Source of the DNA: an uncultured Succiniclasticum sp.
GTDB taxonomy: Bacteria; Bacillota; Negativicutes; Acidaminococcales; Acidaminococcaceae
Assembly: GCA_905233365.1 (NCBI GenBank)
Contig: CAJODT010000013.1
Coordinates: forward strand, 1 to 39,407
Direction of reading: 5' to 3'
Length of the DNA: 39,407 bases
Positions 4,854 to 25,670 of this stretch are shown one piece after another. Under the pieces are notes generated by a model. The model had not been told where the DNA came from, did not search any database, and worked only from the letters and a program-made list of their open reading frames with translations. A program made the translations under genes and the position numbers. Numbering within the stretch: the first letter of the stretch is position 1; each line of letters starts with the position of its first letter.

Positions 4854-4965
4854 TTAGTGACTTTTTCAAAAAAAGAACTTTTACTCAAGCGTATCTACGC
4901 TTACTCCAACACTTCCTTGCCTCCTAAAAAAACACCGTTGTGAAATACCGCAACGCGATTACAAA

Positions 4966-5262
4966 TTATTTTACCGTTGCTTTTAACGGAACAATAGCAA
5001 GCGTTTTGTCCATAGCTGCCAGCAATTTCAACAGCGTACTGACTTGCGGACTGTTTTCGCCCTTTTCGATACGTGCAATAACCGGTTGTTTTACTCCGCT
5101 CAACTTTTCCAAATCACGTTGGGAAATATTTTTTTCTTTTCGTGTTTCAATCATTGCAGCAATCAACGCTGCCTGCAAATCACTTTTCGCAATTTCTTCC
5201 GGCGTAAAATGTTCTTTATCATAGTATTCGTCCCAGACGCGGAAGCCTTTAATCGTTGTCAT
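4966..5262 (-). CDS. HigA-type XRE antitoxin
   Basis: A 98-residue helix-turn-helix protein, the likely antitoxin and autorepressor of the adjacent RelE/HigB-like toxin. The HTH is at about 55-80 (ISQRDLEKLSGVKQPVIARIEKG), preceded by a short N-terminal region, KGFRVWDEYYDKEHFTPEEI. ATG at 5262 is chosen because GGTGG stands 9 bases upstream and because it overlaps the end of the restored toxin frame by 14 bases, the normal coupling of toxin-first higBA operons. The toxin carries a frameshift, so the antitoxin may now be an orphan. Confidence 0.85.
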   Translation of the reverse strand: MTTIKGFRVWDEYYDKEHFTPEEIAKSDLQAALIAAMIETRKEKNISQRDLEKLSGVKQPVIARIEKGENSPQVSTLLKLLAAMDKTLAIVPLKATVK

Positions 5263-11498: not shown

Positions 11499-11664
11499 CG
11501 TAACCTCCAAAATTTTTACGTTCGTTTTCTTTTTTTATTGCTTTCACAAAACCTAAAGGCCTGAAACTAAACAGAGTTCACTTTCATAAATAATAAATAA
11601 TTATATCATTCTTTGTAAAAATATGATACAATACATGGGCGTCAGACAAAAATATATTTAAAAA

Positions 11665-11681
11665 GCGGGCAAATTGCCCGC
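11665..11681. other. GC-rich hairpin in the map/dedA intergenic region
   Basis: GCGGGC and GCCCGC flank AAATT. Only on the minus strand is it followed by a T-run (TTTTTAAATAT), so it would stop minus-strand transcription, yet no minus gene ends just before it. It may block antisense reading into map or form part of the dedA leader. The remainder of 11499-11755 holds no gene. Confidence 0.4.
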
Positions 11682-11755
11682 CTGTCTGTACGATCAACAT
11701 GTTTTTTATTTTTTTTATCATTTACAATAATGAGTAACGGAGGTTTTTCTTTTCC

Positions 11756-12406
11756 ATGGACATCAGCCAGATTCCTTATTACTTCAGCGAATACGTCATG
11801 CATTTTGACAAATACATTCCCGCGGTGATGGCCGCGTACGGCTCCCTGATCTATTTCATCCTGTTCATGATCATCTTCTGTGAAACGGGTTTAGTCGTAA
11901 CGCCCTTCCTGCCGGGAGATTCCCTGCTCTTTGCCTGCGGCGCACTTTCCGCAACAGCCAACAGCCTGCATTTTGGCACATTGTTTATCATCTGCCTTGT
12001 AGCGGCGATTTTAGGAGACACCTGCAATTACTGGATAGGGGAAAAATTCGGACAGAAACTGCTGGAAAGCCACAACCGCCTGATCAAACCGGAACACGTA
12101 GAAAAAGCGCAGAAATTTTACGAAAAGCACGGCCCCAAAGCCATCTTTCTCTGCCGCTTCGTTCCCATCGTCCGCACCTTCGCTCCCTTTGTGGCAGGCA
12201 TCGGCTCCATGCACTACAGCACCTTTATCAAATACAACGTCGCCGGCGGCCTGACCTGGGTTACCCTCTTCACCGGGGCCGGTTACTTCTTCGGTAACAT
12301 TCCCTTCGTCAAGGAAAACTTCTCCCACGTAGCATTAGGCATCATCATCGTGTCGGTACTGCCCATCGTGTATGAATTTGCCAAAGCAAAAATGGGAAAA
12401 GAATAA
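11756..12406 (+). CDS. DedA-family membrane protein
   Basis: Polytopic inner-membrane protein of the DedA/SNARE-associated family (216 residues), which includes undecaprenyl-phosphate and phospholipid flippases. Family motifs are FCETGLVVTPFLPGDSLLFACGAL (about 41-64), LGDTCNYWIGEKFG and FLCRFVPIVRTFAPFVAGIGSM, the arginine-containing re-entrant segments conserved in the family. About five hydrophobic stretches are seen. ATG at 11756 is somewhat far (about 12 bases) from CGGAGG. The stop is two bases from the convergent stop of the alanyl-tRNA editing gene, with no terminator between them. The exact lipid substrate cannot be read from sequence. Confidence 0.92.
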   Translation: MDISQIPYYFSEYVMHFDKYIPAVMAAYGSLIYFILFMIIFCETGLVVTPFLPGDSLLFACGALSATANSLHFGTLFIICLVAAILGDTCNYWIGEKFGQKLLESHNRLIKPEHVEKAQKFYEKHGPKAIFLCRFVPIVRTFAPFVAGIGSMHYSTFIKYNVAGGLTWVTLFTGAGYFFGNIPFVKENFSHVALGIIIVSVLPIVYEFAKAKMGKE

Positions 12407-12408
12407 AA

Positions 12409-13599
12409 TTACAATTCAGCAATCAACTGTTCCGCTTTCTCTTTCCAGTCAGCCGCATAGGGTGCCCCGCCCTGTGCGGATTCTTTTTTGCCGCCGCCTC
12501 TGCCGCCGAAAATATCATTCGCTTTGGCAATAATAGCCTTGCAGTCGCCTGCCGCGCCTTCACCCAGGCCAAACATGTAGTTGACCCGGTCCCCGCTGTG
12601 ATAAATTACAACAGCAATCACATTGGGAACATCCGTCAGCTTTCCGAACAACGTCTTGGCGTCTTTCGGCTCGTACCCGTCCTTCACCGCCGCCGCGATT
12701 TTGCAGCCGGCGGAATTGACCGGGGCTTCTTCCAGAATTTTGATGATTTCCGTTTCCTGAATCTGTTTTATGGCAGCCCGCAGCTTTTCCTTCAGTTCCG
12801 CAATTTCGTCTTCCAGCCGTTCAATAGCCTCGCAGACTTTTTCTTCCTTCGTGCTCAGCATGTTCCCGGCTTCCTGGATGTACCGCATCTTCTTCCGGGC
12901 ATCCTCCAGGGCCCAGCGGCCGCAGAGGAATTCCACCCTCGTACCGCCCTTGTGCTTTTCGATTTTCGTAATCTTGACCAGTCCCACCACGCCGGTTGAC
13001 GTGGGGTGCGTCCCACAGCAGGTGCAGATGTCACCGTCCTGCACCGCCACCACCCGCAAAATGCCGGTCAGCTTTTCATTTTTCTTCCGCATGGGAAGCT
13101 TGTTCACTTCTGTATGGGGCAGATAGGAAACCGTTACCGGGCGGTCCTCCCAGATATGCCGGTTGGCCAGATCCTCCGCCTGAAAAGCTTCCTCCAGCGT
13201 AACCTCTTTATCCAGATCAATTGTTACAAAGCGCTCGTTCATGTGGAAGCCCACATTGTTCGCGCCAAACAGTTTGAAGAACGCATAGGAAAGGATGTGC
13301 TCCCCGCAATGCTGCTGCATGTGATCCAGCCGGTCGGTCCAGTTCACCTGCACCGTAACCTTACTGCCCACAGGAAATTCCGCCGCGCACTCGTGGATTA
13401 TTTTTTCCTTCGTTTCCCGCACATGTTTTACCGCGGCGTCGTTGATTGTGCCCGTATCGCTGAGCTGTCCGCCCCCTTCCGGGAACAGCACCGTCCTGTC
13501 CAGCACAACCGCAAAACCCTGGGGCGCCTGTTCGCACTCCAGCACCGTCGCTTCGCAGGTTTTTAAGTTTGAATCTCTCTCAAATAATTTTTCAGTCAT
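12409..13599 (-). CDS. Alanyl-tRNA editing protein (AlaX-L type) with DHHA1 domain
   Basis: Free-standing homologue of the AlaRS editing domain that hydrolyses mischarged Ser- or Gly-tRNA(Ala). The N-terminal part has the VLFPEGGGQLSDTG motif. Zinc ligands are in HMQQHCGEHILS (about 93-104) and in CTCCGTHP (about 194-201). A coiled coil (KVCEAIERLEDEIAELKEKLRAAIKQI) leads to a C-terminal DHHA1 domain ending in GGRGGGKKESAQGGAP, the glycine-rich loop known from AlaRS. 396 residues fits the long AlaX class. ATG at 13599 is preferred as the first start followed by conserved sequence; the ribosome site is weak, and the frame is open 18 codons further upstream. Confidence 0.93.
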   Translation of the reverse strand: MTEKLFERDSNLKTCEATVLECEQAPQGFAVVLDRTVLFPEGGGQLSDTGTINDAAVKHVRETKEKIIHECAAEFPVGSKVTVQVNWTDRLDHMQQHCGEHILSYAFFKLFGANNVGFHMNERFVTIDLDKEVTLEEAFQAEDLANRHIWEDRPVTVSYLPHTEVNKLPMRKKNEKLTGILRVVAVQDGDICTCCGTHPTSTGVVGLVKITKIEKHKGGTRVEFLCGRWALEDARKKMRYIQEAGNMLSTKEEKVCEAIERLEDEIAELKEKLRAAIKQIQETEIIKILEEAPVNSAGCKIAAAVKDGYEPKDAKTLFGKLTDVPNVIAVVIYHSGDRVNYMFGLGEGAAGDCKAIIAKANDIFGGRGGGKKESAQGGAPYAADWKEKAEQLIAEL

Positions 13600-13704
13600 G
13601 ATGCCCACGTCTTTCTGAATTAACTTTCTTGAGCAAAAAAGCAGCCGATACACTGTACCGACTGCCCTGTCGTGAATTTATTATAGCATAGAAAAAGGAA
13701 TTAG

Positions 13705-13808
13705 GCAAAAACATTGCGGCGGAAAAGACTGCGCAAAAACGTTCACTAAGTTTTGCTGCAGTTCTTTCCCGCCGTTGGTTTTTTTGCACTTAAATTACAG
13801 CACTGCTA
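13705..13808. repeat. 104-bp direct repeat, left copy (palindromic element)
   Basis: Almost identical (102 of 104) to 15454-15557, same orientation. Its core is an imperfect palindrome: GGCGGAAAAGACTGCGCAAAA pairs in shape with TTTTGCTGCAGTTCTTTCCC then GCC, around a loop of about 13 bases. About 30 bases past the palindrome (to ACAGCACTGCTA) are also conserved. Together with the right copy it brackets the DUF4143 ATPase gene. Confidence 0.9.
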
Positions 13809-14080
13809 AAGGCTCATTTTTTCAGCACTATCACCGTGGGTGGTGGAGGCGGAGGCGGGGCACTAAAAAACGCCTGCGCCTTTTCAGGCATAAGCGTCTG
13901 TTCCGGAGCGTTGCTTTTATACCAAGTTCGTCAGAACAAAGTAAAAACGCAGCTGCCCCCTGAGGGACAGGGAGGTTTTACAAGTGAGCGAAAATATAAA
14001 TTTCAGCTATATCTATTGCTATGGTTATGCTTCCTATGCTATACTGTAGCTGAAAAAAATGCGGATTGACGCAAAAATTT
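13809..14080. other. Gap without a recognisable gene
   Basis: Includes a Gly-codon-like GGT/GGC-rich stretch near 13837-13860 and a GCCTG/CAGGC hairpin near 13873. Open frames have no ribosome site or conserved sequence. The promoter of the ATPase gene should lie toward its right end (TATACT near 14039 is one candidate -10). Confidence 0.35.
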
Positions 14081-14096
14081 CACGGAGGTTTTGGCG

Positions 14097-15398
14097 ATGC
14101 AATTTGAAAGAACACAGTATCTGGATCAGCTGATCCGTAAAAAGGATAACGGTCGCATTAAGATCATTACCGGTCTTCGCCGGTGCGGAAAGTCGTATCT
14201 GCTGTTCAATCTTTACCGCCAGTATCTGCTGAGCTCCGGCATCTCAGCAGATCAGATTGTGGAGCTCGCCCTGGATGAGATTGATAACGCAAAATACCGT
14301 AACCCCTTCGAACTGAACAAAGTCGTAAAAGAACGGATGCCGGACAAAAGCAAGCGCTATTATGTGTTCATTGATGAAATTCAGTTTGTTACTGAAATCC
14401 AAAACCCCTACGTGGATGACCCAAAGGAGAAGCTGACCTTCATTGATGTTGTGCTGGGATTGATGAAAATCCCGAATGCCGATATTTACGTAACAGGAAG
14501 CAATTCTACGATGCTATCGTCTGACATTCTGACCCAATTCCGGGACCGTGGGGACGAAATCCGTGTTAACCCGCTTTCCTTCGCGGAAGTGTATGAACGT
14601 TATCAGGGCGATAAGCGGAATGCGTGGCGCGACTATTACACCTATGGCGGAATGCCCCTGGTCTGGTCTATGGAAACTCACGAAGAAAGAAGCCGGTACC
14701 TGCAGGACCTCTTCAGCCGGACCTATATAAAGGATGTACTGGAACGGCATCAAGTGAAGAATGACGCTGAAGTCCTGGAGCTGCTCTTGAATGTACTGGC
14801 ATCTGGAATCGGATCGCTGACCAATCCCAGCAGGCTGTCAAACACCTTTGCAAGCGAAATACATATCCGGGTCGCGCCGGATACCATCGACACCTACATC
14901 GGGTATTTCCAGGACGCATTTTTGCTCCAAAAAGCGGAGCGGTACGATGTAAAGGGACGAAAGTACATCAAAACTCCTGTCAAGTATTATTATTCAGATC
15001 CCGGCCTGCGTAACGCACGGCTTAATTTCAGGCAGCTGGAAGAGACGCACCTGATGGAAAATGTTCTGTATAATGACCTGGTCCGCAGAGGCTTCAATGT
15101 GGATGTTGGCGTTGTGGAACAGAATACAAAAGACGATTCCGGGAGAAACATCCGTAAACAGCTGGAAGTAGATTTTGTGATAAACAGAGGCGATGAGCGG
15201 TACTATATACAATCCGCCTTATCCGTTGCCGACCCGGACAAAAGAACACAGGAAATTGCTTCCCTGATCAGAATCCCCGATTCTTTCCGGAAGATTGTAG
15301 TTGTAAAAGATTATATGAAGCCCTGGAAAGATGAGAACGGCATCCAGTATATCGGAATTGAGGATTTCCTTCTGGATGAGGGTCTTATCCGCGGATAA
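14097..15398 (+). CDS. AAA_14/DUF4143 family ATPase
   Basis: A 433-residue ATPase of a family widely scattered in bacteria and often repeated in accessory regions; its cellular role is unknown. Walker A is GLRRCGKSYL (about 27-36), Walker B YVFIDEIQ (about 88-95), sensor-like YVTGSNSTMLSS near 127. The DUF4143 half follows (RTYIKDVLERHQ, RLSNTF, YFQDAFLL, KYYYSDPGLRNA) and ends in a PD-(D/E)xK-like stretch, QLEVDFVINRGDERYYIQ. ATG at 14097 has GGAGG 8 bases upstream. The gene is the only one between two 104-bp direct repeats and is probably a mobile or recombinable cassette. Confidence 0.9.
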   Translation: MQFERTQYLDQLIRKKDNGRIKIITGLRRCGKSYLLFNLYRQYLLSSGISADQIVELALDEIDNAKYRNPFELNKVVKERMPDKSKRYYVFIDEIQFVTEIQNPYVDDPKEKLTFIDVVLGLMKIPNADIYVTGSNSTMLSSDILTQFRDRGDEIRVNPLSFAEVYERYQGDKRNAWRDYYTYGGMPLVWSMETHEERSRYLQDLFSRTYIKDVLERHQVKNDAEVLELLLNVLASGIGSLTNPSRLSNTFASEIHIRVAPDTIDTYIGYFQDAFLLQKAERYDVKGRKYIKTPVKYYYSDPGLRNARLNFRQLEETHLMENVLYNDLVRRGFNVDVGVVEQNTKDDSGRNIRKQLEVDFVINRGDERYYIQSALSVADPDKRTQEIASLIRIPDSFRKIVVVKDYMKPWKDENGIQYIGIEDFLLDEGLIRG

Positions 15399-15453
15399 TT
15401 CGTTGTTTTAACAGAGGCGTGAAATATAAAAAAGCACGGCCTGCCTATGTTGC

Positions 15454-15557
15454 GCAAAAACATTGCGGCGGAAAAGACTGCGCAAAAACGTTCACTATGT
15501 TTTGCTGCAGTTCTTTCCCGCCGTTGGTTTTTTTGCACTAAAATTACAGCACTGCTA
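15454..15557. repeat. 104-bp direct repeat, right copy (palindromic element)
   Basis: Second copy of the repeat at 13705, offset by 1749 bases, with two substitutions. It begins 55 bases after the ATPase stop codon; on transcription it would form the same long hairpin and may act as terminator. Confidence 0.9.
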
Positions 15558-15571
15558 CTTCAAGATTATCC

Positions 15572-15727
15572 TCAGAACATATACGCCACGCTGATGTTGC
15601 CGCCGAAGCCGCGATGCTTGCCCGCGTACCCGTACAGGCTGATGTCCGCCTGCCACGGGTTCGTTTTTGTGGCGTTCATGCGCATGCCGATCTCGGCCCA
15701 GCCGCTGCCGCCCTTGATGCTGCGCTC
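15572..15727 (-). pseudogene. Autotransporter beta-barrel C-terminal remnant
   Basis: Minus-strand translation gives about 50 residues: ERSIKGGSGWAEIGMRMNATKT, NPWQADISLYGYAGKHRGFG, then GNISVAYMF and a stop at 15572. Alternating aromatic/hydrophobic strands and a terminal Phe are the signature of the last strands of an outer-membrane autotransporter barrel. The rest of the gene is absent: upstream the sequence becomes the end of the YvrJ gene, whose stop codon overlaps the fragment. It shows that the host has an outer membrane and that this locus was rearranged. Confidence 0.75.
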
Positions 15728-15893
15728 ATTTTTTTGCAACGTCGCCGCGCATGGCGGCGATGTTGCAGCTCAGCTCCCCGATCACTTCCGTCAGGCCTGC
15801 CAGTTTGTTTTCCATACGCACCAGCAGGAACCAGCTCAGGACAACAGGGAAACCGAAATCTTTAATAAAGCTGAATACTTCCGTGGTCTCCAT
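15726..15893 (-). CDS. YvrJ-family small membrane protein
   Basis: A 55-residue protein with one hydrophobic segment (FGFPVVLSWFLLVRMENKLAGL) and a short charged tail, matching the YvrJ family (unknown function; sometimes called holin-like because of size). ATG at 15893 follows GGGGGTCGCG; a GTG at 15914 in the same frame would overlap the upstream DUF2922 stop. It closes an amidase-DUF1659-DUF2922-YvrJ series. The stop codon overlaps the autotransporter remnant. Confidence 0.75.
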   Translation of the reverse strand: METTEVFSFIKDFGFPVVLSWFLLVRMENKLAGLTEVIGELSCNIAAMRGDVAKK

Positions 15894-15910
15894 GTCGCGA
15901 CCCCCGTTCA

Positions 15911-16108
15911 TCACTCAATGGTGTTGGTGGTGGTTGTACGCATGCGGCCTTCCACAGCTTCCACGATGTCGCCGCCGTCCACAATCACGTTCATGGCGGC
16001 ATCAATTTCCGCTTTGGTTACGGTGGCTTTGGGTTCCTCAATGTTGAGGGTTACCTTTTTGCCCGCTGCGTTCTTGAACACCAATTCCAGATCGGTATCA
16101 GATTTCAT
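15911..16108 (-). CDS. DUF2922 family protein
   Basis: 65 residues (KSDTDLELVFKNAAGKKVTL, later EEPKATVTKAEIDAAMNVIV), a good match to the DUF2922 pattern; function unknown. ATG at 16108 has AAGGAGG 9 bases upstream; a frame start at 16129 is less likely. It is followed by the YvrJ gene and preceded by the DUF1659 gene, an association repeatedly seen in Firmicutes. Its gap from DUF1659 (16109-16273) holds a GGCGGACGC/GCGCCCGCC hairpin (about 16229-16256) that is T-rich only on the plus strand. Confidence 0.8.
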   Translation of the reverse strand: MKSDTDLELVFKNAAGKKVTLNIEEPKATVTKAEIDAAMNVIVDGGDIVEAVEGRMRTTTTNTIE

Positions 16109-16273
16109 AGTCTTTTTCCTCCTTCTCATTAATTATCAAAATTTTTTCAGGCGATTTCTCTGAAATCGGAGCGTATTGGTCAAACCGTCTTTTATGCTAA
16201 GACATGCACCGCTCACTGCCTTTTAACATGGCGGACGCGTAATCTTATGCGCCCGCCCTTTTCTTTTCCCCGG

Positions 16274-16498
16274 TTATTCTTCAATCAGGGATGCGCGTTC
16301 CGTTACGGAAAGTCCGGTAATTTCGTTATCGAACAGGCCGCCCAGGGCTTTGCCTACCGCGATCAGTTTCGCCGGTTCCACGTCCGGTTTCACATTGGAA
16401 TAGACGTAGCTCTTGGTTACGGAGTTGCCTTCCGCATCCTGGCCGCGCAGGATGGAAACGTTCAGGGTACGTTTGGTTACGTTCATAACTGCTGCCAT
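16274..16498 (-). CDS. DUF1659 family protein
   Basis: 74 residues (AAVMNVTKRTLNVSILRGQD, KSYVYSNVKPDVEPAKLIAV, GKALGGLF), matching DUF1659, a small family of unknown function almost always found next to DUF2922 and YvrJ. The ribosome site is a perfect GGAGGTGA 7 bases before ATG 16498, suggesting strong translation. The 218-base gap to the amidase (16499-16716) carries GAGCGGTT/AACCGCTC arms and other hairpins but no gene. Confidence 0.82.
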   Translation of the reverse strand: MAAVMNVTKRTLNVSILRGQDAEGNSVTKSYVYSNVKPDVEPAKLIAVGKALGGLFDNEITGLSVTERASLIEE

Positions 16499-16716
16499 TT
16501 TGTTTCACCTCCTCTCTCTGTTTATTTTGCGGAGCGGTTCCGCCATGTACCGCGCTGCCGCGCGATCTGTCGCACAACCGCTCCCGGTGCGGGGCTTACT
16601 GCGCCATCGGCTCACATCTGCAGGCCATACGATTCTGCCGCATGCCGTATTGCACGCCCGCTTATCTGAACTGCGCCTACTCAGAAAAATACCTTTCGCC
16701 GCAGGTCAAACCATCG

Positions 16717-17352
16717 CTACACCGCTTTCTTCTGCATTTCCTTCAAATAGTACTTTGCCTTGCCGCGGAGTAGGTCCCCGCCCTGTTCCAGCTCGCCGTA
16801 CAGATTGGTCTTCGGCAGGAACCACAAGTCCCAGCGCATGTCCGGGTCGCCGTCGCCGGGTCCGTAGGCGTCTTCAAAGGCAGCCTCGCAGTGGGTCTGC
16901 ACCGTTTCATATTCAATGGGCAGGTGCAGTTCGTCGCAAAGAATTGCCACCACCTTTGCCATCACCTCGATCTGGATCTCTGTAGGCGGTTCCGGCCCGA
17001 AGTCGATCACCGCGCAGTCTGTCTGCGGGCAATGGGAAATTTCATGGGCCCGGTACACGGAATGCCCCTGACAGTCGCTGGGCAGCCAGCAGTTGGCGTC
17101 CACGCCGCAGCATAAGGCGATGCCGATAGCGCTGTGGTTCCGCAGCCAGGTATGCGGCTTGTATTCCACCAGATTCTTACAATGCACATACACAGTCCCA
17201 TCCCGGTCGATACAAAGGTGGTAGTCGTCGTAGGCCTGGCCGTAATGTCCGGCGGTCCAGTGCAGGTAAATATTTTTGATACCGTTTCTGACTTCCCGGG
17301 CCAGGGCCCTCAGTTCTTCTTCGTTGATTGAAGCAGGGTGTTTTACGAGCAT
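16717..17352 (-). CDS. N-acetylmuramoyl-L-alanine amidase (amidase_2/PGRP type)
   Basis: Zinc amidase that cuts the amide bond between muramic acid and the stem peptide. Zinc-ligand His31 is in IYLHWTAG, the KPHTWLRNHSAIGIALCCG segment matches the substrate groove, a second His is in VQTHCEAAFEDAYG, and GDPDMRWDLWF corresponds to the DPG-containing ligand loop. 211 residues without signal peptide or wall-binding repeats is phage-endolysin-like. ATG at 17352 is chosen with AAGGAG 9 bases upstream, although two ATGs lie just before it. It heads the minus-strand group with DUF1659, DUF2922 and YvrJ. Confidence 0.87.
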   Translation of the reverse strand: MLVKHPASINEEELRALAREVRNGIKNIYLHWTAGHYGQAYDDYHLCIDRDGTVYVHCKNLVEYKPHTWLRNHSAIGIALCCGVDANCWLPSDCQGHSVYRAHEISHCPQTDCAVIDFGPEPPTEIQIEVMAKVVAILCDELHLPIEYETVQTHCEAAFEDAYGPGDGDPDMRWDLWFLPKTNLYGELEQGGDLLRGKAKYYLKEMQKKAV

Positions 17353-17543
17353 ATTCATCATCTCCTTTTCGTTTTTTAGGTTCGTAATTTGTCCCCCACT
17401 TACCTAATCGTTTTACCCCCCAAAAATGCAACCAACTTTTTTTAAAATTTTTAAAATTTTTTTCAGGCAGGCGTTTCGCGTGTTACTTTCATTAAGCAAA
17501 ACCCCTTCCTTCTCCAATGCAATATAACAAAATGAAGCAGACA

Positions 17544-17587
17544 TAAAAACGCGCCGCAGCGGTTCCACCACGGAACTGCTGCGGCGC
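17544..17587 (-). terminator. Strong rho-independent terminator of the XRE gene
   Basis: GCGCCGCAGCGGTTCC and GGAACTGCTGCGGCGC form a near-perfect 16-bp stem with a 5-base loop at 17551-17587. On the minus strand it ends in GTTTTTATG. It lies 55 bases past the XRE stop codon. Confidence 0.85.
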
Positions 17588-17641
17588 TGTCATGCGTGTC
17601 GCTAAAGTAATTACATGTTTCGTCTTTTGTTTTATTTCATC

Positions 17642-18001
17642 TTATACAGGCTGTGCTTCCACATCAGCCATCTCATTCTTTAATTGCAGCATACGGTTTT
17701 TCAGATACTCATATTCTGCTTTCAGCCTGCGTGGCTTACAGGCTTTTCCTTCGCCCTGCGCAACGGTCCACTGATCCGTATCCCATTCGATAACGTCCCT
17801 GTAGCCTTCGCTGAGCGATACGTTAAACAATTTCTCCATCTCACGGAGATTGGCCTTGGTCGGTTTTGCCTGATCGGTCTCCCATTTGTAAATGGTCTTC
17901 CTGGAAACCCCGATTTTCTGCCCCAGCTCATACTGCGACAATCTCAACCGGTTACGGTAGAGAAAAATCAGTTCACCGAGCGTGTAAAACTTTTTTCTAA
18001 T
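17642..18001 (-). CDS. XRE-family repressor with C-terminal helical tail; unusual start
   Basis: HTH protein, RLSQYELGQKIGVSRKTIYK, followed by WETDQAKPT and a charged helical C terminus (LKAEYEYLKNRMLQLKNEM). Probably the repressor of the accessory element. Coding sequence clearly continues upstream of the first conventional start (TTG 17947), since GELIFLYRNRLRLS belongs to the first HTH helix. No ATG, GTG or TTG lies in frame before a stop; an ATT at 18001 has AAGGAG 10 bases upstream and gives 119 residues. Either a rare ATT start or a small indel near the A-run at about 17991 is implied. A strong promoter lies at 18079, and the gene diverges from the sigma-like gene. Confidence 0.75.
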   Translation of the reverse strand: MRKKFYTLGELIFLYRNRLRLSQYELGQKIGVSRKTIYKWETDQAKPTKANLREMEKLFNVSLSEGYRDVIEWDTDQWTVAQGEGKACKPRRLKAEYEYLKNRMLQLKNEMADVEAQPV

Positions 18002-18035
18002 AAATCTACCACTCCTTGATATTCAGGTATAACTT

Positions 18036-18165
18036 TACTTGCCGAAACATGTAAATCAGTTCAGCATCACGAAAATAGATTATAGCACAATAAATTTTAT
18101 TTGCCAATATGTAACTAAAAATTATATAATAAAAATTTATACCTTTTTATTTACCAATCTGTATC
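18036..18165. promoter_or_regulatory. Repeated TTTRCCAATNTGTAWC boxes, candidate repressor operators
   Basis: TTTGCCAATATGTAAC at 18100-18115 and TTTACCAATCTGTATC at 18150-18165 are 50 bases apart. A looser version, TTGCCGAAACATGTAA, is near 18039-18054. They surround and overlap the XRE promoter. Assignment as operators is inference. Confidence 0.45.
18079..18107 (-). promoter_or_regulatory. Strong sigma-70 promoter of the XRE repressor
   Basis: Minus strand TTGGCA and TATAAT with a 17-base spacer and an upstream TG, near consensus. The -35 lies inside one of the repeated TTTGCCAATATGTAAC boxes, suggesting autoregulation. Confidence 0.75.
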
Positions 18166-18284
18166 GCTTTGTCCCGTATTTTGTTTTTAAAAAAATTTGC
18201 AGAGCTTGAAGGTCGCAAAAGTTCCCATAAATTTCCCGTAAGTTTCTCCTGTCAGTTTGAATATTTTTAGAAAATGTAACCTCT

Positions 18285-18328
18285 ATGGGAACTCTGTGAG
18301 AACTTGATGAGAACTCCATGGGAACTTG
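18285..18328 (+). repeat. Four tandem 11-bp repeats upstream of the sigma-like gene
   Basis: ATGGGAACT, GTGAGAACT, ATGAGAACT and ATGGGAACT start at 18285, 18296, 18307 and 18318, each followed by two variable bases: an exact 11-bp period. One inverted copy (AGTTCCCAT) is at 18220-18228. The array ends about 108 bases before the sigma-like start codon. One copy per helical turn suggests cooperative protein binding on one face of the DNA. Confidence 0.85.
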
Positions 18329-18435
18329 AATATTACTGGTTTTTCTGCTAATCTATAAAAGTCGTTTTGCGACAAAAGCCAAAAAGAGCAGACGTTGTTT
18401 TTTCAAAAAAGTCCGCTCGGGAAAGGACGTGAATC

Positions 18436-19224
18436 ATGAAACACAGGTGCCCTGAAGAACCGAACCTCTTTTGTTTCGCCGCGCTGGCGTACGCAGCGCA
18501 ACAATTGAGGGAAATGCGTACTGACGCAAAAGCGCCGGAAGAAACGCCGCCAAACAGATATGCCGCAGCGGTAAAGCCGATACAGGCGATACCGCTGAAA
18601 TCACCGCCCTGGAATGAATGGCTGCGCCTGGCGCGGCAGGGAGACGATAATGCCAAACTGCTTTTCTGCTCCCAGGCAGAACCATTTATTAAAAATTTCT
18701 GCAATGTCGCTATGTATACGGAACGGCTAGGAAAAGACGATGTCCGCGGTATAGCGGCTCTTGCCGTGGTGGAGTTCCTGATGGAATACGCTGACCCGCC
18801 GGAAGACAAAGAGATACCTTTTATGCTGAAACGGATCATACGCAACAAGCTCACCGACCAGCTGCGAAAGATGTCGGTGCGGGAGCAGTATAACTACCAG
18901 AAGCCCCAACGGGACTGCGACGATACGGAACCGGAGCAGGATGATGTGGCAGAGGTTCCTTCTGACAAGAAGGAAGAACCGGAAGCCAGAGCATTGCACA
19001 GGGAACTGGCCTGGGACACGGCCGTTGCGTTCCAGCATTTGAAGCCCCACGAGCAGCAGGTGCTTGACGCCGTGTTCTACCAGAAAAAAGCCTCGGCAGA
19101 CATTGCGAAAGAATGGCACTGCACCCGTCAGTACGTGGAAAAACTGCGGGACAAGGCCTTGCGCCAGTTGCGCAGGCTGCTGGGTGGAACCCGCGCCGCG
19201 TACCGTTATCCGGTTATGGGATAA
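18436..19224 (+). CDS. Sigma-70-like transcription factor of the accessory element
   Basis: A 262-residue protein with sigma-like regions 2 and 4. Region 2-like sequence is at about 70-150 (DNAKLLFCSQAEPFIKNFCN, then LGKDDVRGIAALAVVEFLME and FMLKRIIRNKLTDQLRK). An acidic linker follows. Region 4 is at about 205-250 (LKPHEQQVLDAVFYQKKASA, then DIAKEWHCTRQYVEKLRDKA). The first 60 residues are unconserved. The ribosome site is AAAGGA before ATG 18436. It opens the plus-strand replication module and is divergent from the XRE repressor, as an activator of element genes would be. The precise sigma subfamily is not recognised. Confidence 0.75.
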   Translation: MKHRCPEEPNLFCFAALAYAAQQLREMRTDAKAPEETPPNRYAAAVKPIQAIPLKSPPWNEWLRLARQGDDNAKLLFCSQAEPFIKNFCNVAMYTERLGKDDVRGIAALAVVEFLMEYADPPEDKEIPFMLKRIIRNKLTDQLRKMSVREQYNYQKPQRDCDDTEPEQDDVAEVPSDKKEEPEARALHRELAWDTAVAFQHLKPHEQQVLDAVFYQKKASADIAKEWHCTRQYVEKLRDKALRQLRRLLGGTRAAYRYPVMG

Positions 19225-19345
19225 CGCGTTACAAAATAATTAATCCGGTCCCGGTTACGCACAGTTACGCAACCGGGCCGGAACCAGATGTAAGCGATGT
19301 TGATTCGCAGGAAACTATTTTACAAAATAGAGGAGAATTTAATTA

Positions 19346-20482
19346 ATGGATATACAGACAGTAAATTATATTTTGAAATTAGTCAGAGAAGCACTGGAAC
19401 GGTTGACGAAATTGAACGGGACCGCCCAGGTGGACGGACTTCCGCCGTTTGACCTGCTGCCGCAAAAAACAGCGCTGGAACTGACCACCGCCCACAATTA
19501 CGATCTGGACGATGAAGCGCTCCGCCTGGCCTACCGGCGGATGAAGAACCGGGACCGGCAGCGCCGCTACCGCCAACGGCATCAACAGACCCGGAATAAT
19601 TATAAAACTGTTGCCGGTGACGTAAAATGCGTTATGGGTAACAAAAAAAGCGTTACATGTAACGCAGAAACCGTTACGCGTAACGCGGCAACGCCGGAAG
19701 CGTTACCCCTGGAAAATGGCGATGCCAGCCCCGCGCAAGACTGCGCAGACGCGGCTTCCGCCACAACAGAGGCGGAACAGGGAAACCTGTTTTGCGACGC
19801 AGACGTAACGGAAACCCGTAACGCTTCCGTAACGGGTTGTAACGCTTTTGCAAAAAAAGAAAAAGAAAACGAGAAAAGAAAGAGGCAAAGAAAAGAGATA
19901 AATAAAAAGCAAAAAAATAAAACCAATATCGCTGACGCGATGCCTAATAGCGCGCGCGCACGGGAAGAAAACGCGGCGGCAATGAAAAACCCCCGGGCCG
20001 ACGTAACCAATGACGCAACAAAAAACAGCGCCACAGGCAAGAGCACATTCGCCAACCCGGACGGCAGCTGCCTTCCCTTTGTGTCGCCGGAACCGAAAAA
20101 ATCCGAACTGATCCCCACCGACGAACTGTCGGAAGCCTGCCGCAACGTAGTGAGAGCCTGGAACAAGCTGCCCCTGCCGAAAAAGTTAAGCGGTTTGTTT
20201 CCTTCGCTCGTGAAGCGGCTGAACTATCTGCTGGAAAATTATGGCGAAGAAGCTGTACACAATGCGATCGCCAGTATTGCCAACAGTCCTTTCCTGTTAG
20301 GCAAATCCAGGAACAACCGGGGCTGGGTCATCAACTTCAGCTGGCTGGTAGAGCCGGAGAACCTGGAAAAGATTTTAAGCGGCCAGTATCAGGACGATGT
20401 GCCCGGCAGGCACTGCCTGTTCCAGCCCGGCGATGAGTTGCAGCCTATACCGGAAGGCTTTTACGGAACGGTGGTGTATTAA
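19346..20482 (+). CDS. Phage-type replication initiator (DnaD-like organiser)
   Basis: 378 residues. The N terminus is short and helical with a basic stretch (YRRMKNRDRQRRYRQRHQQTRNNY, about 63-86). The middle is low-complexity with repeated VTRNA/VTCNA words and a Lys/Glu-rich run (FAKKEKENEKRKRQRKEINK). The C-terminal 120 residues (ACRNVVRAWNKLPLPKKLSG, AIASIANSPFLLGKSRNNRG, then WVINFSWLVEPENLEKILSG) match the end of phage replisome-organiser proteins. The low-complexity part exists because the DNA there encodes palindromic iterons (19631-19844), so the gene probably carries its own origin, as lambda O does. The start has GAGGAG upstream. The helicase loader gene follows two bases after the stop. 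Confidence 0.8.
   Translation: MDIQTVNYILKLVREALERLTKLNGTAQVDGLPPFDLLPQKTALELTTAHNYDLDDEALRLAYRRMKNRDRQRRYRQRHQQTRNNYKTVAGDVKCVMGNKKSVTCNAETVTRNAATPEALPLENGDASPAQDCADAASATTEAEQGNLFCDADVTETRNASVTGCNAFAKKEKENEKRKRQRKEINKKQKNKTNIADAMPNSARAREENAAAMKNPRADVTNDATKNSATGKSTFANPDGSCLPFVSPEPKKSELIPTDELSEACRNVVRAWNKLPLPKKLSGLFPSLVKRLNYLLENYGEEAVHNAIASIANSPFLLGKSRNNRGWVINFSWLVEPENLEKILSGQYQDDVPGRHCLFQPGDELQPIPEGFYGTVVY
19631..19844. repeat. Iteron cluster inside the initiator gene, candidate replication origin
   Basis: Three palindromes with centres exactly 21 bases apart: GTTATGGGTAAC (19631-19642), CGTTACATGTAACG (19651-19664) and CGTTACGCGTAACG (19672-19685), the last two perfect. A half-site GTTAC follows at 19702. 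A second group of direct GTAACG sites begins at 19805, 19818, 19829 and 19839. More GTTACGC copies stand before the gene at 19254 and 19264, plus TAACGCGTTA at 19222-19231. The arrangement suits dimeric initiator binding. Confidence 0.8.
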
Positions 20483-20484
20483 GC

Positions 20485-21567
20485 GTGAGCGAAAACTTTA
20501 CAGAAACGGCAGCGGAAAATTCCGCTGCCAGAACGGCCTGCGACGGCGTAACGCCCGAAGAAGACCGGAAAGACCACGAACCCACAGCGGCAGGCGAAAT
20601 CATTACCGCCACGTCCCTTTTTGCCGGCGTGCAGGATTACAGCGTCACCATCGATGCGGAAGCGGAAACGGTGGAAAGCGAACGGGACGACATCCCCGGC
20701 ACGCCAAACTACAACTGGAAAAAGTTCGGCTATACCCGCATCACCGAAGAAACCTTCACCGGCGGCCCCCACCCCGGCGACTACGTAAAAGACGGAGTGC
20801 TGCACTGCGGATACTGCCACAAGCCAAAATATGTTTTGCACGAGCTGTTTGGCGAAATGAAGGCCTTCCCCATCGACTGCGACTGCATGAAGGAATGCCA
20901 GCAGCGCATCGCGGAACTGCGCCAGCGCCGGGAACAACTGATCAGGGCGGAAAACTGCCGCCGCCATGCGCTGGCCTATCCCCACATGCACAAATGGACC
21001 TTTGCCAACGACGACGGCGGCAGCCCTGCCATAACGGGCCACGCCAAAGAGTACGTGCGCAACTTTCCGGAAATGAAAGAAAAGGGCGCAGGACTTTTCC
21101 TGATGGGCGTCACCGGAACGGGCAAGTCTTTCACCGCCGCGCAGATCATCAACGCCCTGTGCGACCAGGGCTATTACTGCCTGATGGTCAGCTTCACCGA
21201 TATCGTGTTGCAGCTGCTGTCCATGAACCGGGAAAAACGGCTGTTGTACATTGACGAAATCTGTAACCACGACCTGGTGGTTTTCGACGGTTACGGCGCA
21301 GAACCCAGCACCTACTTTTCCGACCTGAACATACTGGAAATCGTAGAGATCTGTTACAACAGACAGGTGCCCATGATCGTGACCACCAACCTGTCGCAGG
21401 AACTGCTGAAAGAAGGAAACATCACCCGCCAGATCATCCTTTCCCGGATGCAGGAACGCTGCTACTGCCTGACCCTGGGCAATACCAAACGCCGGAACAG
21501 GCTGGCAACGGAACGCTGGGGCCGTTTCCGTCAATTGCTGGGCATAAAGGAGGAAAAAAATAAATGA
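20485..21567 (+). CDS. DnaC-like helicase loader ATPase with zinc-binding N-terminal region
   Basis: 360 residues. Walker A is GVTGTGKS (208-215) and Walker B LVVFDGYGAE (264-273), with Gly in place of the usual second acidic residue. The TTNLSQELL segment is sensor I, and SRMQERCYCLTLG is the arginine-finger region. Before the ATPase domain six cysteines (CGYC at 108-111, CDCMKEC at 132-138, C158) suggest a zinc site. The protein should deliver the host replicative helicase to the initiator-opened origin. GTG at 20485 starts two bases after the initiator stop, and the end overlaps the next gene by ATGA, so the three are one transcript. The first 65 residues are acidic and unconserved. Confidence 0.87.
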   Translation: MSENFTETAAENSAARTACDGVTPEEDRKDHEPTAAGEIITATSLFAGVQDYSVTIDAEAETVESERDDIPGTPNYNWKKFGYTRITEETFTGGPHPGDYVKDGVLHCGYCHKPKYVLHELFGEMKAFPIDCDCMKECQQRIAELRQRREQLIRAENCRRHALAYPHMHKWTFANDDGGSPAITGHAKEYVRNFPEMKEKGAGLFLMGVTGTGKSFTAAQIINALCDQGYYCLMVSFTDIVLQLLSMNREKRLLYIDEICNHDLVVFDGYGAEPSTYFSDLNILEIVEICYNRQVPMIVTTNLSQELLKEGNITRQIILSRMQERCYCLTLGNTKRRNRLATERWGRFRQLLGIKEEKNK

Positions 21568-21920
21568 CAGTAAAAGAAGCGATAGAGCGCGGCAAAGAAA
21601 TAGCCGCCGGTACATTTCTCAGAAGTTTAGAAGGGTGTGCGATCAAAATTTATGAAATTTTAGGCTATACCAACAGCAAATATATCGGGTACAGTAAAAT
21701 AGCTTATATCCGAAGCGATGAAAACAGGGGCGAAAAGCACATTTACTACCAGTACGTCTGCCACAAGCTGGTAAAATGCAGTTTTAAGCAGGCGCTGATT
21801 ACGCCGGATTACAAAAAATTTAAGATTTTCATCTACAGCATCGTGTATGAGCGCTACAACAGGGACGGCAGCTACACAAGATCAACAGGCACGCCGATGG
21901 TTACCCTGATTGAAAAATAA
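21564..21920 (+). CDS. Small unknown protein of the replication module
   Basis: 118 residues, translated from an ATGA overlap with the helicase loader gene, with AAAGGAGG upstream. No family recognised. It contains an aromatic-rich middle (YEILGYTNSKYIGYSKIAYI) and no membrane segment or enzyme motif. Its coupling to the loader suggests a role in element replication or its control, but nothing direct shows this. Confidence 0.7.
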   Translation: MTVKEAIERGKEIAAGTFLRSLEGCAIKIYEILGYTNSKYIGYSKIAYIRSDENRGEKHIYYQYVCHKLVKCSFKQALITPDYKKFKIFIYSIVYERYNRDGSYTRSTGTPMVTLIEK

Positions 21921-21923
21921 TTT

Positions 21924-21947
21924 TTGCGGCGCCGTTTGGCGCCGCAA
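21924..21947 (+). terminator. Hairpin ending the replication operon
   Basis: TTGCGGCGCC and GGCGCCGCAA pair around GTTT, directly after the stop codon at 21920. The following T-run is weak (GTTTCC), so efficiency is uncertain. Confidence 0.5.
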
Positions 21948-21997
21948 GTTTCCAGTGCATTTATTAAATTAATCTTACAGGAAAGGAGTCCGCAACC

Positions 21998-22396
21998 ATG
22001 TTGAAGCTATATGAAAATATCAGGGCAAGGCGCATCGCGTTACACATGACGCAGCAGGAGCTGGCAAAGAAATTAGGATATAAATCCACGTCTACCATTG
22101 CCAAAATAGAATCTGGCGAAAACGATATTCCCCAGGCAAAAGTTGCCGCTTTTGCCAGCGCACTGGATACGACGCCGTCTGCACTGATGGGAATTAACGT
22201 CGCAGCCGCAGCGCTTGCCGTGCCGGGCGATATGGCAATAGTCGCCATTACAAAAAATAAGCCGCTGCTGAAAGCACTCATCAAACGGCTGGACGGCCTC
22301 AGCGAAATGAGATTGAAGTACGTCGCTGATATCGTCAATACAGTGATTGACAGTTACGAAGCTGAGGAAGGCATTGCCCGCGGCAAACAAAAATAA
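21998..22396 (+). CDS. XRE-family transcriptional regulator (phage CI-like, without protease domain)
   Basis: 132 residues. The HTH is at 8-60 (IRARRIALHMTQQELAKKLG, YKSTSTIAKIESGENDIPQ), followed by SALDTTPSALMG, the usual end of a Cro/CI-type domain. A short C-terminal helical part follows (KPLLKALIKRLDGLSEMRLK). There is no LexA/CI peptidase domain. AAAGGAG lies 9 bases before ATG 21998. It may control the replication module upstream or act as an immunity regulator. The stop overlaps the start of the hairpin that terminates nrdG from the other strand. Confidence 0.85.
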   Translation: MLKLYENIRARRIALHMTQQELAKKLGYKSTSTIAKIESGENDIPQAKVAAFASALDTTPSALMGINVAAAALAVPGDMAIVAITKNKPLLKALIKRLDGLSEMRLKYVADIVNTVIDSYEAEEGIARGKQK

Positions 22397-22422
22397 CCTG
22401 ATGCGTTTTTTAACGCACCAGG
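22397..22422 (-). terminator. Terminator of nrdDG
   Basis: CCTGATGCG and CGCACCAGG form the stem; read on the minus strand it continues GTTATTTTTGTTTG. It lies 20 bases after the nrdG stop and just after the convergent XRE gene. Confidence 0.7.
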
Positions 22423-22441
22423 TCGTGGGCTATTGCTTCTT

Positions 22442-22996
22442 TTAATATTTCTTTTCCGGCTCAAAGAGACCTTCGTTGTCGTCCCACAGCACGATTTCAT
22501 CAGCGGCCAGCGATTTCTGTACGTCAATCACCCGCTGGTTGCTGCTGCCACGGAAGCGCAGCTTCAGATCTTTTTCTTCCAGATGGAATTCGCCGTCCAC
22601 CAGAATATCTATCAGATCCAGCAATTGTTTCGTAATTTCCCAGGGGCCTAACTTGCCCGCCAGGATATCTTTTTCGTAATCGTAACCGGTGTAGCACCAC
22701 ACGGTTTTGTGGGGATAAATTTCTTTAAACTTCTGTACCACACGCAGTACTTCCGGCTGGTTTTCCGGCTCGAAGGGCTCGCCGCCTAACAAAGACAGGC
22801 CTTCGATAAAATCGTGGTTGCAGGCACGCAGTATCGTGTCAAGCACTTCCCCGGTAAAGGGTTTGCCGTAATTGAAATCCCAGGTTTCCGGATTGAAACA
22901 GCCCCGGCAGTGATGACGGCAGCCGCTGACGAACAGGGACACCCGCACGCCGGGTCCGTTGGCAATATCATGGCGCTTCAGCGCAGCATATTTCAT
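22442..22996 (-). CDS. nrdG: Anaerobic ribonucleotide reductase activating enzyme
   Basis: Radical-SAM enzyme that generates the glycyl radical of NrdD. The cluster-binding motif CRHHCRGC (26-33) fits CxxxCxxC, and LSLLGGEPFEPEN supplies the SAM-binding GGE. Length 184 is slightly longer than many homologues. The start ATG 22996 lies 15 bases after the nrdD stop, forming a nrdD-nrdG operon on the minus strand. Confidence 0.96.
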   Translation of the reverse strand: MKYAALKRHDIANGPGVRVSLFVSGCRHHCRGCFNPETWDFNYGKPFTGEVLDTILRACNHDFIEGLSLLGGEPFEPENQPEVLRVVQKFKEIYPHKTVWCYTGYDYEKDILAGKLGPWEITKQLLDLIDILVDGEFHLEEKDLKLRFRGSSNQRVIDVQKSLAADEIVLWDDNEGLFEPEKKY

Positions 22997-23011
22997 AAAC
23001 TCTACACTTCC

Positions 23012-25138
23012 TTACAGATGCAGCACGCGGGCCTTAATTTCCTTCGTCTTGCCCACGTTCCAGAAATTCTCGCCCAGGTAACCGCAGGTACGGCGGGTCA
23101 CGTTCATCTTGGCATGATCCTTGTTATGGCACTGGGGGCATTCCCATTCGTTGTCGTCGTTGATCATGATTTCTCCGTCGTAGCCGCAGACCATGCAGTA
23201 ATCGGACTTGGTATTGAATTCCGCGTACTGGATGTGGTCGTAGATAAACTGCACGGCCGCTTCCATTGCTTTCGGGTTGCGCTGCATGTCCGGAATTTCC
23301 ACGTAGCTGATGGCGCCGCCGGAGGACAGCTTCTGGAATTCGCTTTCAAATTCAAATTTGGAGAAGGCATCGATATGCTCCCGCACGTCCACGTGGTAGG
23401 AGTTGGTATAGTAGCCCTTGTCGGTAATATCCTTGATGGTGCCGAAGCGTTCCTTGTCGATGCGGGCAAAGCGGTAGCACAGGGATTCCGCCGGGGTGCC
23501 GTACAGAGCGAAACCGATATTAGTCTCCGCTCTCCAGCGGTTGCAGGTCGCCCGCAGATGTTTCATCACCCGCAGGGCAAAATCTTTTCCTTCCGGCGTG
23601 GTGTGGCTGCAGCCTTTCACGGCTTTGGTCATTTCGTACAGGCCGATGTAGCCCAGGGAAATGGAAGAGTACCCTCCATACAGATATTTGTCGATGACTT
23701 CGCCTTTGCCCAGGCGGGCGATGGCGCCGTACTGCCAGTGGATGGGGCTCACGTCGGAGTGAATTCCCTTCAGGGCGTTGTGGCGGCACATGATGGCTTC
23801 GAAGCACAGGGCCAGGCGCTCATCCAGCAGCTTCCAGAATTTATCTTCATCGCCCTCGGAAAGGATGCCGATTTGGGGCAGGTTGATGGAAACCACGCCC
23901 TGGTTGAAACGGCCTTCAAATTTATAATTGCCGTTCTCGTCCTTCCAGGGAGCCAGGAAGCTGCGGCAGCCCATGGGGCTGAACACGTTGCCTTCGTAGT
24001 TTTCCCGCATCTTCTTCGCGGAAATATAATCCGGGTACATCCGCTTGGCACTGCATTTTACTGCCAAATGGGTCAGGTAATCGTACTTGCCGCCCCGCAG
24101 GCAGTTGTTTTCGTCCAGCACATACACCAGCTTCGGGAACGCCGGCGTCACATACACGCCTTTTTCGTTTTTGATACCCTGCAGGCGCTGCCGGAGGATT
24201 TCTTCAATGATCATAGCATTTTCTGCAATATAGGGATCGTCTTCCCGCAGGTACAGGAACAGGGTCACGAAGGGGGACTGGCCGTTAGTGGTCATCAGAG
24301 TGTTTATCTGGTACTGGATGGTCTGGACGCCGGCTTTCAATTCTTCACGGAGCCGCTCGTCCACAATGGCTTCAACCATCTTCTGGTCTGCATTCCCGCC
24401 CAATGTCTCTCTGGTATGTTCCATAAATTTTTCCCGGCTGCGGCGCAGGTATTTGCCCAGATGCCGCACATCCACGGACTGGCCGCCGTACTGGCAGGAA
24501 GCTACGGACGCGATGATCTGGGTCATCACGTTACAGGCTACCTGGAAGCTCTTGGGAGATTCAATCATCTTGCCGTTCATCACGGTGCCATTGTCCAGCA
24601 TGTCGCCGATGTTGATCAGGCAGCAGTTAAAGATGGGCTGGATAAAATAATCCATATCATGGAAATGAATCGCGGCTTCGTCATGGGCTTTGGCAATTTT
24701 TTCCGGCAGGATCACGCGGCGGGTCAGGTCTTTAGACACCTCGCCGGCAATCAGGTCGCGCTGAGTGGAGGCCATAATGGCATTCTTGTTGCTGTTTTCT
24801 TCCATAACATCTTTGTTGCTGTTACGGATCAGGGTCAGGATGGATTCGTCCGTGGTATTGGCTTTGCGCACCAGCGCCCGGCGGTAACGGTAAATGATGT
24901 AGGCTTTCGCCAGATCAAACTTGCCGGCTTCCTGCAGCTGGCGTTCCACAATATCCTGAATATCCTCTACCAACAGGCGGGGGCGGTTCTTACCGTGTAC
25001 ATACTCCGCAATCTCTTTGATCTTGCTCTCTGAAATACGGCACCCTTCATCCACTGCCGCATTGGCCTTTTCAATGGCTACTACAATTTTCTGCGGATCA
25101 AAATCAACCGTCGTCCCGTCACGCTTAATTACTTTCAT
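23012..25138 (-). CDS. nrdD: Anaerobic ribonucleoside-triphosphate reductase
   Basis: Class III reductase making dNTPs without oxygen. An N-terminal ATP-cone (MKVIKRDGTTVDFDPQKIVV) gives allosteric control. The core has NTLMTTNGQSPFVTLFLYL, CNVMTQIIASVASCQYGGQS and NIGFALYGTPAESLCYRFA. Four cysteines near the C terminus (CMVCGYDG, CPQCHN) bind zinc. The glycyl-radical site is in TRRTCGYLGENFWN (Gly about 686). Length 708 is usual. ATG 25138 follows GGGAGGG. The upstream region carries NrdR boxes and DnaA boxes. A long open frame on the opposite strand is only a shadow. Confidence 0.97.
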   Translation of the reverse strand: MKVIKRDGTTVDFDPQKIVVAIEKANAAVDEGCRISESKIKEIAEYVHGKNRPRLLVEDIQDIVERQLQEAGKFDLAKAYIIYRYRRALVRKANTTDESILTLIRNSNKDVMEENSNKNAIMASTQRDLIAGEVSKDLTRRVILPEKIAKAHDEAAIHFHDMDYFIQPIFNCCLINIGDMLDNGTVMNGKMIESPKSFQVACNVMTQIIASVASCQYGGQSVDVRHLGKYLRRSREKFMEHTRETLGGNADQKMVEAIVDERLREELKAGVQTIQYQINTLMTTNGQSPFVTLFLYLREDDPYIAENAMIIEEILRQRLQGIKNEKGVYVTPAFPKLVYVLDENNCLRGGKYDYLTHLAVKCSAKRMYPDYISAKKMRENYEGNVFSPMGCRSFLAPWKDENGNYKFEGRFNQGVVSINLPQIGILSEGDEDKFWKLLDERLALCFEAIMCRHNALKGIHSDVSPIHWQYGAIARLGKGEVIDKYLYGGYSSISLGYIGLYEMTKAVKGCSHTTPEGKDFALRVMKHLRATCNRWRAETNIGFALYGTPAESLCYRFARIDKERFGTIKDITDKGYYTNSYHVDVREHIDAFSKFEFESEFQKLSSGGAISYVEIPDMQRNPKAMEAAVQFIYDHIQYAEFNTKSDYCMVCGYDGEIMINDDNEWECPQCHNKDHAKMNVTRRTCGYLGENFWNVGKTKEIKARVLHL

Positions 25139-25232
25139 GCCAAAACCCTCCCAATGTTTTTGTTTTCGCGTTCTATTTTCCCCTATTTTAATCTTAATGA
25201 ATAGCGACTCACAGCGCCTGCCACACGGCAGT

Positions 25233-25382
25233 CACTATATCTTGTACCATACAGAATTTGCCCGTCACATAAAAAGGCACAAACAAATTCATTATAATTT
25301 TAGCATGTTCTTTTTCTCTTGTAAACTATATCTTGTGATTTCTGATAAAAATTTTCTTTTTTATTGTCAATATCTTGTGGTT
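25233..25382. promoter_or_regulatory. Three NrdR-box-like operators upstream of nrdD
   Basis: CACTATATCTTGTA (25233-25246), AACTATATCTTGTGAT (25324-25339) and TCAATATCTTGTGGT (25367-25381) resemble the NrdR box ACACTATATATAGTGT. The second and third are 42 bases apart, four helical turns, as known for paired NrdR boxes. They would repress nrdDG when nucleotides are plentiful. The nrdR gene itself is not in the window. Confidence 0.7.
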
Positions 25383-25396
25383 TGTAAACAGCTACC

Positions 25397-25457
25397 TGTG
25401 AATAACGTGTGGATAAATTTATTTTTTTGTGGATAAAGTAAGTCTTCTTGTGTATAA
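25397..25457 (+). promoter_or_regulatory. Cluster of four DnaA boxes
   Basis: TGTGAATAA (25397), TGTGGATAA (25408), TGTGGATAA (25428) and TGTGTATAA (25449), all in the same orientation; two are perfect complements of TTATCCACA. Starts are 11, 20 and 21 bases apart, close to whole helical turns. They lie upstream of nrdD beyond the NrdR boxes. Confidence 0.7.
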
Positions 25458-25490
25458 GCAGAAGCCTGGCATTTTTTTACAATTGTAAAA

Positions 25491-25670
25491 GCAGCGGCGG
25501 AAAAGAACTGCAGCAAAACATAGTGAGCGTTTGCGTAATTTTATGAGACGAAATGAGCCGTCCGCGTCGAGACTGTTTGAGGAGCGAAGCTCCGAGTTTC
25601 GAAGACGCAGGCGAATGAGTCCATAAAATAGCAAACGGGAACGTTTTTGCGCAGTCTTTTCCGCCGCTGC
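25491..25670. repeat. 180-bp palindromic MITE-like element, fullest copy
   Basis: The ends are perfect 15-base inverted repeats, GCAGCGGCGGAAAAG, extended by AAAA/TTTT outside. The arms continue as an imperfect inverted repeat for about 50 bases (to TTTTATG/CATAAAA) around an 80-base centre with its own short hairpins (GGAGCGAAGCTCC). The outer arms match the 104-bp repeats at 13705 and 15454 and the worn copy at 4803. No open frame is plausible, so any movement would need an enzyme elsewhere. It also lies just past the end of the ECF operon and could terminate it. Confidence 0.8.

Follow-up and report, generated by a model that had tools for sequence, protein, structure and literature searches.

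Replication origins located inside the gene of their own initiator are of a known kind, represented by phage lambda O, SPP1 gene 38, the lactococcal phages r1t and Tuc2009, and plasmid pSK41. In lambda, the iterons lie within O and consist of imperfect inverted repeats of 19 bp (PMC7466680). The initiators of TP901-1 and Tuc2009 bind repeats inside their own genes, and the r1t and Tuc2009 origins have been established experimentally (PMC8965321). SPP1 oriL lies within gene 38 and comprises direct repeats and an AT-rich unwinding element (PMC6316719). In pSK41, the Rep boxes are central in rep and encode the linker between the N-terminal DNA-binding and C-terminal domains, and both ends of the protein are structurally DnaD-like (PMC5703833).

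We analyzed a 39,407-nucleotide stretch of contig CAJODT010000013.1 from an uncultured Succiniclasticum sp. (the window), for which an original prediction had proposed a replication origin hidden in the initiator coding sequence. Like this locus, lambda ori has inverted-repeat iterons and an AT-rich tract midway through the initiator gene (O), with a helicase loader gene next to it; unlike this locus, its iterons are 18-19 bp long, are spaced at 20, 24, and 23 bp, use another word, and are not accompanied by a 10/11-bp direct-repeat set. The phased palindromes had been considered distinct in kind from those of lambda, which was an overstatement, since lambda iterons are also inverted repeats, 20-24 bp apart. 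The lactococcal P335 phages (r1t ORF11, Tuc2009 Rep, TP901-1 REP) share with the window the direct repeats inside the initiator gene. Our re-analysis found four GGAACC words in r1t and four CAACCA words in Tuc2009, exactly 11 bp apart and in the linker, so that helical spacing is already present in these established origins; in contrast to the window, they use these other words and have neither palindromes nor a 21-bp set. SPP1 oriL, as described in the literature, resembles the window in having repeats and an AT-rich element in the initiator gene. The RepA_N origin of pSK41 likewise has its sites in the linker-coding middle of the gene, but its protein contains the RepA_N winged-helix domain, whereas no winged helix is recognized in the window protein. 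What looks new is the type of site, its strict phasing, and its recurrence in unrelated initiators, and earlier published GTAAC iterons are possible.

Results

Initiator gene and its neighborhood

The central gene (Table 1) encodes an initiator, as had been proposed: its product matches PHROG profiles for a DnaD-like helicase loader (phrog_10469, E 3e-16), a replication initiation protein (phrog_19658), and an O-like protein (phrog_345), and a DnaC-like gene adjoins it. The protein had no match in Pfam or NCBIfam, its PDB profile matches looked spurious and were set aside, and window proteins used as single queries against viral contigs returned no matches. The N-terminus of the window family is short, with one helix followed by a long Arg-rich helix, and a winged helix is not recognized by Pfam or AlphaFold; the Phage_rep_org_N winged helix (PF09681) had no Pfam match in the window protein or its relative L008 and was matched in the relative L009, which sits in the same kind of cassette. 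The AlphaFold model is poor as a whole (mean pLDDT 46), with a local pLDDT of ~80 in the basic helix, and the iteron-bearing linker is predicted to be disordered. The RxRxxR motif is invariant across the window initiator family, and we propose that the basic helix may be the DNA-reading element.

Table 1. Features of the initiator locus (window coordinates).
Feature	Position	Strand	Basis
Sigma-70-like gene, upstream partner with conserved synteny	18436-19224	+	Sigma70_r4; TIGR02937
Initiator gene, 378 aa, C-terminal DnaD-like helicase-loader domain aa 172-350	19346-20482	+	PHROG profiles
Long basic helix, aa 56-90, RRMKNRDRQRRYRQRHQQ, proposed DNA-reading element	19511-19615	+	AlphaFold, RxRxxR conservation, co-occurrence with GTNAC arrays
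Palindrome 1, GTTATGGGTAAC, imperfect in outer arm	19631-19642	+	Sequence
Palindrome 2, GTTACATGTAAC, encodes V-T-C-N	19652-19663	+	Sequence
Palindrome 3, GTTACGCGTAAC, encodes V-T-R-N	19673-19684	+	Sequence
CGTTAC half-site, single	19701-19706	-	
GTAACG direct repeat, frame 0, V-T	19805-19810	+	
GTAACG direct repeat, frame 1, R-N-A	19818-19823	+	
GTAACG direct repeat, frame 0, V-T	19829-19834	+	
GTAACG direct repeat, frame 1, C-N-A	19839-19844	+	
A-rich purine tract, candidate DNA unwinding element, encodes KKEKENEKRKRQRK	19846-19930	+	76% AT, 81% purine
DnaC/DnaI-like helicase loader gene	20485-21567	+	phrog_50 (E 1e-31); PRK08116 (E 7e-51, below its cut-off); IstB_IS21

The initiator belongs to a cassette (15729-21567) with YvrJ, DUF2922, DUF1659, amidase, and HTH genes on the minus strand and the sigma-like, initiator, and DnaC-like genes on the plus strand. 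It recurs as a unit in G008 (locus L236) and G001 (L237), and in G005 (L240) with no HTH match detected; where compared (window and G008), the flanks differ. Among the neighbors tested, which cover part of the contig ORFs (amidase, YvrJ, DUF2922, DUF1659, HTH, sigma-like, nrdG, and nrdD), there was no integrase, terminase, or capsid gene. Judged by its gene content, the cassette is possibly an orphan replication-plus-lysis module, and the lack of such genes among these neighbors means that it could be a replication-defective remnant.

Several other repeats were observed nearby. Four GRGAACT repeats, ~11-12 bp apart, lie just upstream of the sigma-like gene (~18290-18345), and L236 carries a GAACAGTT/AACTGTTC set at the corresponding place. 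Copies of a dispersed repeat family (13705-13790, 15430-15540, 25487-25532, and 25639-25667; ~11 genome matches) flank the cassette and nrdDG in inverted orientation. Four tandem DnaA-box-like TTATNCACA sites are located at 25397-25457, upstream of nrdD. At 19213-19268, in the last part of the sigma-like gene and immediately past it, upstream of the initiator gene, GTTATGGGATAAC occurs together with three noncoding GTTAC words (19228, 19254, and 19264), a set absent from L236.

Organization of the iteron sites

Both sets of repeats were found where they had been predicted. The three GTTAYNNRTAAC palindromes have a center-to-center spacing of exactly 21 bp; they are the only such sites in the window, and the whole 2.34-Mb genome contains 12. 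The GTAACG direct repeats forming the second set are spaced at 13, 11, and 10 bp. The array comprises 10 GTWAC words in 230 bp, compared with a maximum of 4 and a mean of 0.47 elsewhere in the contig, and is located ~290-500 bp into the coding sequence, in the region encoding the linker, where it yields the odd peptide words VTCNA and VTRNA noted earlier, as well as VTETRNA and VTGCNA. No TTWTNCACA was found from 11043 to 25397, so the array does not have the DnaA-box cluster of a host oriC. A search of Rfam gave no match.

The A-rich tract directly adjoins the iterons, which, together with their linker position and the helicase loader gene that follows, bears out the proposed origin-like layout. 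Its unwinding energy is at about the 3rd percentile of the window, with the segment 18074-18153 lower still, and it would be the melting site. Across homologs, arginine codons in this tract are AGR rather than CGN (P 6e-7). As a search query, the tract returned unrelated matches.

Selection at the DNA level

When the window gene was shuffled synonymously 20,000 times with protein and codon usage held fixed, none of the shuffles (0/20,000) contained three palindromes or nine GTAACG words, and synonymous shuffling of five close family members gave P values of 0.001-0.003 each. Pair spacings of 10, 11, 21, 42, and 63 bp are over-represented relative to the synonymous null, with 21 pairs observed and 4.0 expected at 21 bp. 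The codons of the VT dipeptide follow site geometry: in two gene sets, its valine is encoded by GTT in the palindromes (VTxN) and by GTA in the direct repeats (VTxxN) (P 0.003 and 0.001). In addition, the codon preceding asparagine in these words is nGT in 27/27 cases vs 31/281 elsewhere (P 6e-23). The valine-codon switch with site geometry and the nGT codon before asparagine are DNA-level effects. Helical phasing at alternating 10 and 11 bp causes the same DNA word to be read in frames 0 and 1, and this two-frame reading produces the VTxN and VTxxN peptide words. The view that DNA function shapes the protein is therefore borne out by both the shuffles and codon choice.

Homologs and paralogs

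The same-genus relatives derive from rumen and gut Acidaminococcaceae bins. Four of them (L006, L007, L008, and L011) retain the array at ~50-55% protein identity, so that the periodicity expected in diverged homologs was recovered. L007 contains a VTGNADT/ITGNATT heptad run with GTAAC half-sites in 21-bp register over ~190 bp, and the other three contain direct repeats whose spacing alternates between 10 and 11 bp. In the paralogs L014, L016, L019, L022, and L025 the word is GTGAC, and in L013 it is GTCCC, both at 9+12 = 21-bp spacing; VTxN is replaced there by RD/CD or VP peptides, and the repeated words are kept. Judged from these sequences, the word changes in the paralogs and the design is retained. 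A third group (L015, L021, L023, L031, and L026) carries GTAACG every 12 bp, of which L015, L021, and L023 reach weak or no significance when the words are counted over the whole gene against the synonymous null.

The original prediction regarded homologs having the same peptide without the DNA repeats as evidence against it. L009, L010, and L012, which have the same C-terminal domain as the window protein but neither the Arg-rich helix nor the array, lack the DNA words and the peptide words alike. Their lack of an array nevertheless counts against the origin reading, at least L009 having the same kind of cassette. A noncoding TGACGT/ACGTCA array is present upstream of the sigma gene in two of the cassettes of these three proteins (L240, 6634-6785; L243, reverse complement, 4935-5081), whose initiators have no internal GTNAC words. 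It is phased at 21 bp in G005, and the G007 copy, with spacings of 18, 20, 52, and 51, is out of phase; we therefore rejected it as a 21-bp-phased set and treat it as a probable regulatory array. It may conceivably substitute for the missing GTNAC array.

Distribution among initiators

GTNAC arrays, defined as at least 4 words in 200 bp, were present in 23 of the 85 non-redundant initiator genes vs 1 of 374 control ORFs; the initiator set was assembled by homology, and its members are phylogenetically non-independent. With a helix motif defined after some members had been seen, 18 of these genes have both array and motif, 5 only the array, 19 only the motif, and 43 neither (Fisher P 1.4e-4), and at least 4 of the 5 array-only genes have, by eye, a near match to the motif. 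The two co-occur whether or not the protein has a winged helix. This association between the Arg-rich RxRxxR helix and the GTNAC array, drawn from sequence comparison, is a lead and not proof. No GTNAC array was found in the initiators of Epsilon15, SPN1S, BUCT711, phiPSA1, and Carin1, and that of Xanthomonas phage SAC has a weak set of three.

In other families of this class, Phage_rep_org_N proteins carry the same words. The Veillonella sp. VA142 initiator gene (L111/L282) resembles that of the window in containing palindromes at exactly 21 bp (four GTTACTAGTAAC copies, with VTSN peptide words), but its product has a Phage_rep_org_N winged-helix N-terminus and is otherwise unrelated. When IMG/VR was searched for GTTACnnGTAAC palindrome pairs without restriction on spacing, nine loci had the 21-bp distance, and eight of these lie within long ORFs whose products contain VTxN words. 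PHROG replication profiles match six of the eight proteins, in some cases weakly (L189, E 0.0016); the protein L215 is a near-identical sister of one so matched, and L177 has no such match. As an origin-specific marker, the 21-bp GTTACnnGTAAC pair failed in bacterial genomes, where ~4 of 26 loci are initiators and many others are minisatellites (e.g., in Prevotellaceae and Tannerellaceae bins) or paired-operator-like. The paired GTTACCGGTAAC sites among them resemble what we take to be GntR-type operators. Since the bacterial pairs are mostly minisatellites or operator-like, the pattern, as far as these scans show, serves as an origin marker only in phage settings.

Discussion

We consider it highly probable that a small phage-derived module has its replication origin here, inside the gene of its own initiator, and that this origin is opened via helically phased GTAAC half-sites. 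The initiator would bind the half-sites along the same side of the double helix, as palindromic pairs every 21 bp and then as direct repeats every 10-11 bp; the DNA, wrapped and strained by the bound protein, would open at the adjoining A-rich tract, and the DnaD-like C-terminal domain together with the DnaC-like neighbor protein would load the helicase of the host. The gene may tolerate such sites because the region encodes a linker predicted to be disordered.

The array could instead consist of autoregulatory operators for the initiator or for the neighboring HTH or sigma regulator, given that HTH genes and a sigma-like gene adjoin and that extra GTTAC words lie upstream of the initiator gene. 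We regard this as unlikely, since the array is far from the gene start, the upstream words are not retained in L236, and a mid-gene linker position with a following A-rich tract matches proven origins. Much less probable still is selection on the VTxNA peptide repeats for protein function with the DNA pattern as a secondary effect. Relatives do show the peptide words again, and the whole-gene count test gives weak or no significance for the 12-bp class (L015, L021, and L023); nevertheless, codon choice in the close family tracks the DNA word, which is used in two frames, the paralogs exchange the peptides and retain repeated GTGAC or GTCCC, and a disordered linker, as modeled, also argues against a peptide function. 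Equally improbable is a functionless tandem duplication or minisatellite expansion. Most bacterial 21-bp GTTACnnGTAAC pairs are minisatellites, but here the bases between units differ, the units vary in orientation and frame, and their retention extends to ~50-55% protein identity.

With the locus read as an initiator-gene origin, its sites may also bear on initiators more widely. We put forward, tentatively and as rather a minority expectation, that GTnnC half-sites are read, across a wide range of phage initiators, by an Arg-rich helix (RxRxxRxR) located behind N-terminal domains that are otherwise unrelated. If this is true, databases already hold a catalog of matched helices and DNA sites (GTAAC, GTGAC, GTCCC, GTTTC, and others), since the cognate sites of every such initiator lie within the sequence that encodes it. 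Apart from that conjecture, the layout of the locus offers a sequence-only route to phage origins and to the pairing of an initiator with its binding word, initiator and sites sharing one gene. It also accounts for the common low-complexity words VTxNA, VTxCNA, and HCNxxVTxCN in phage replication proteins, as a side effect of the helical phasing of the DNA sites.
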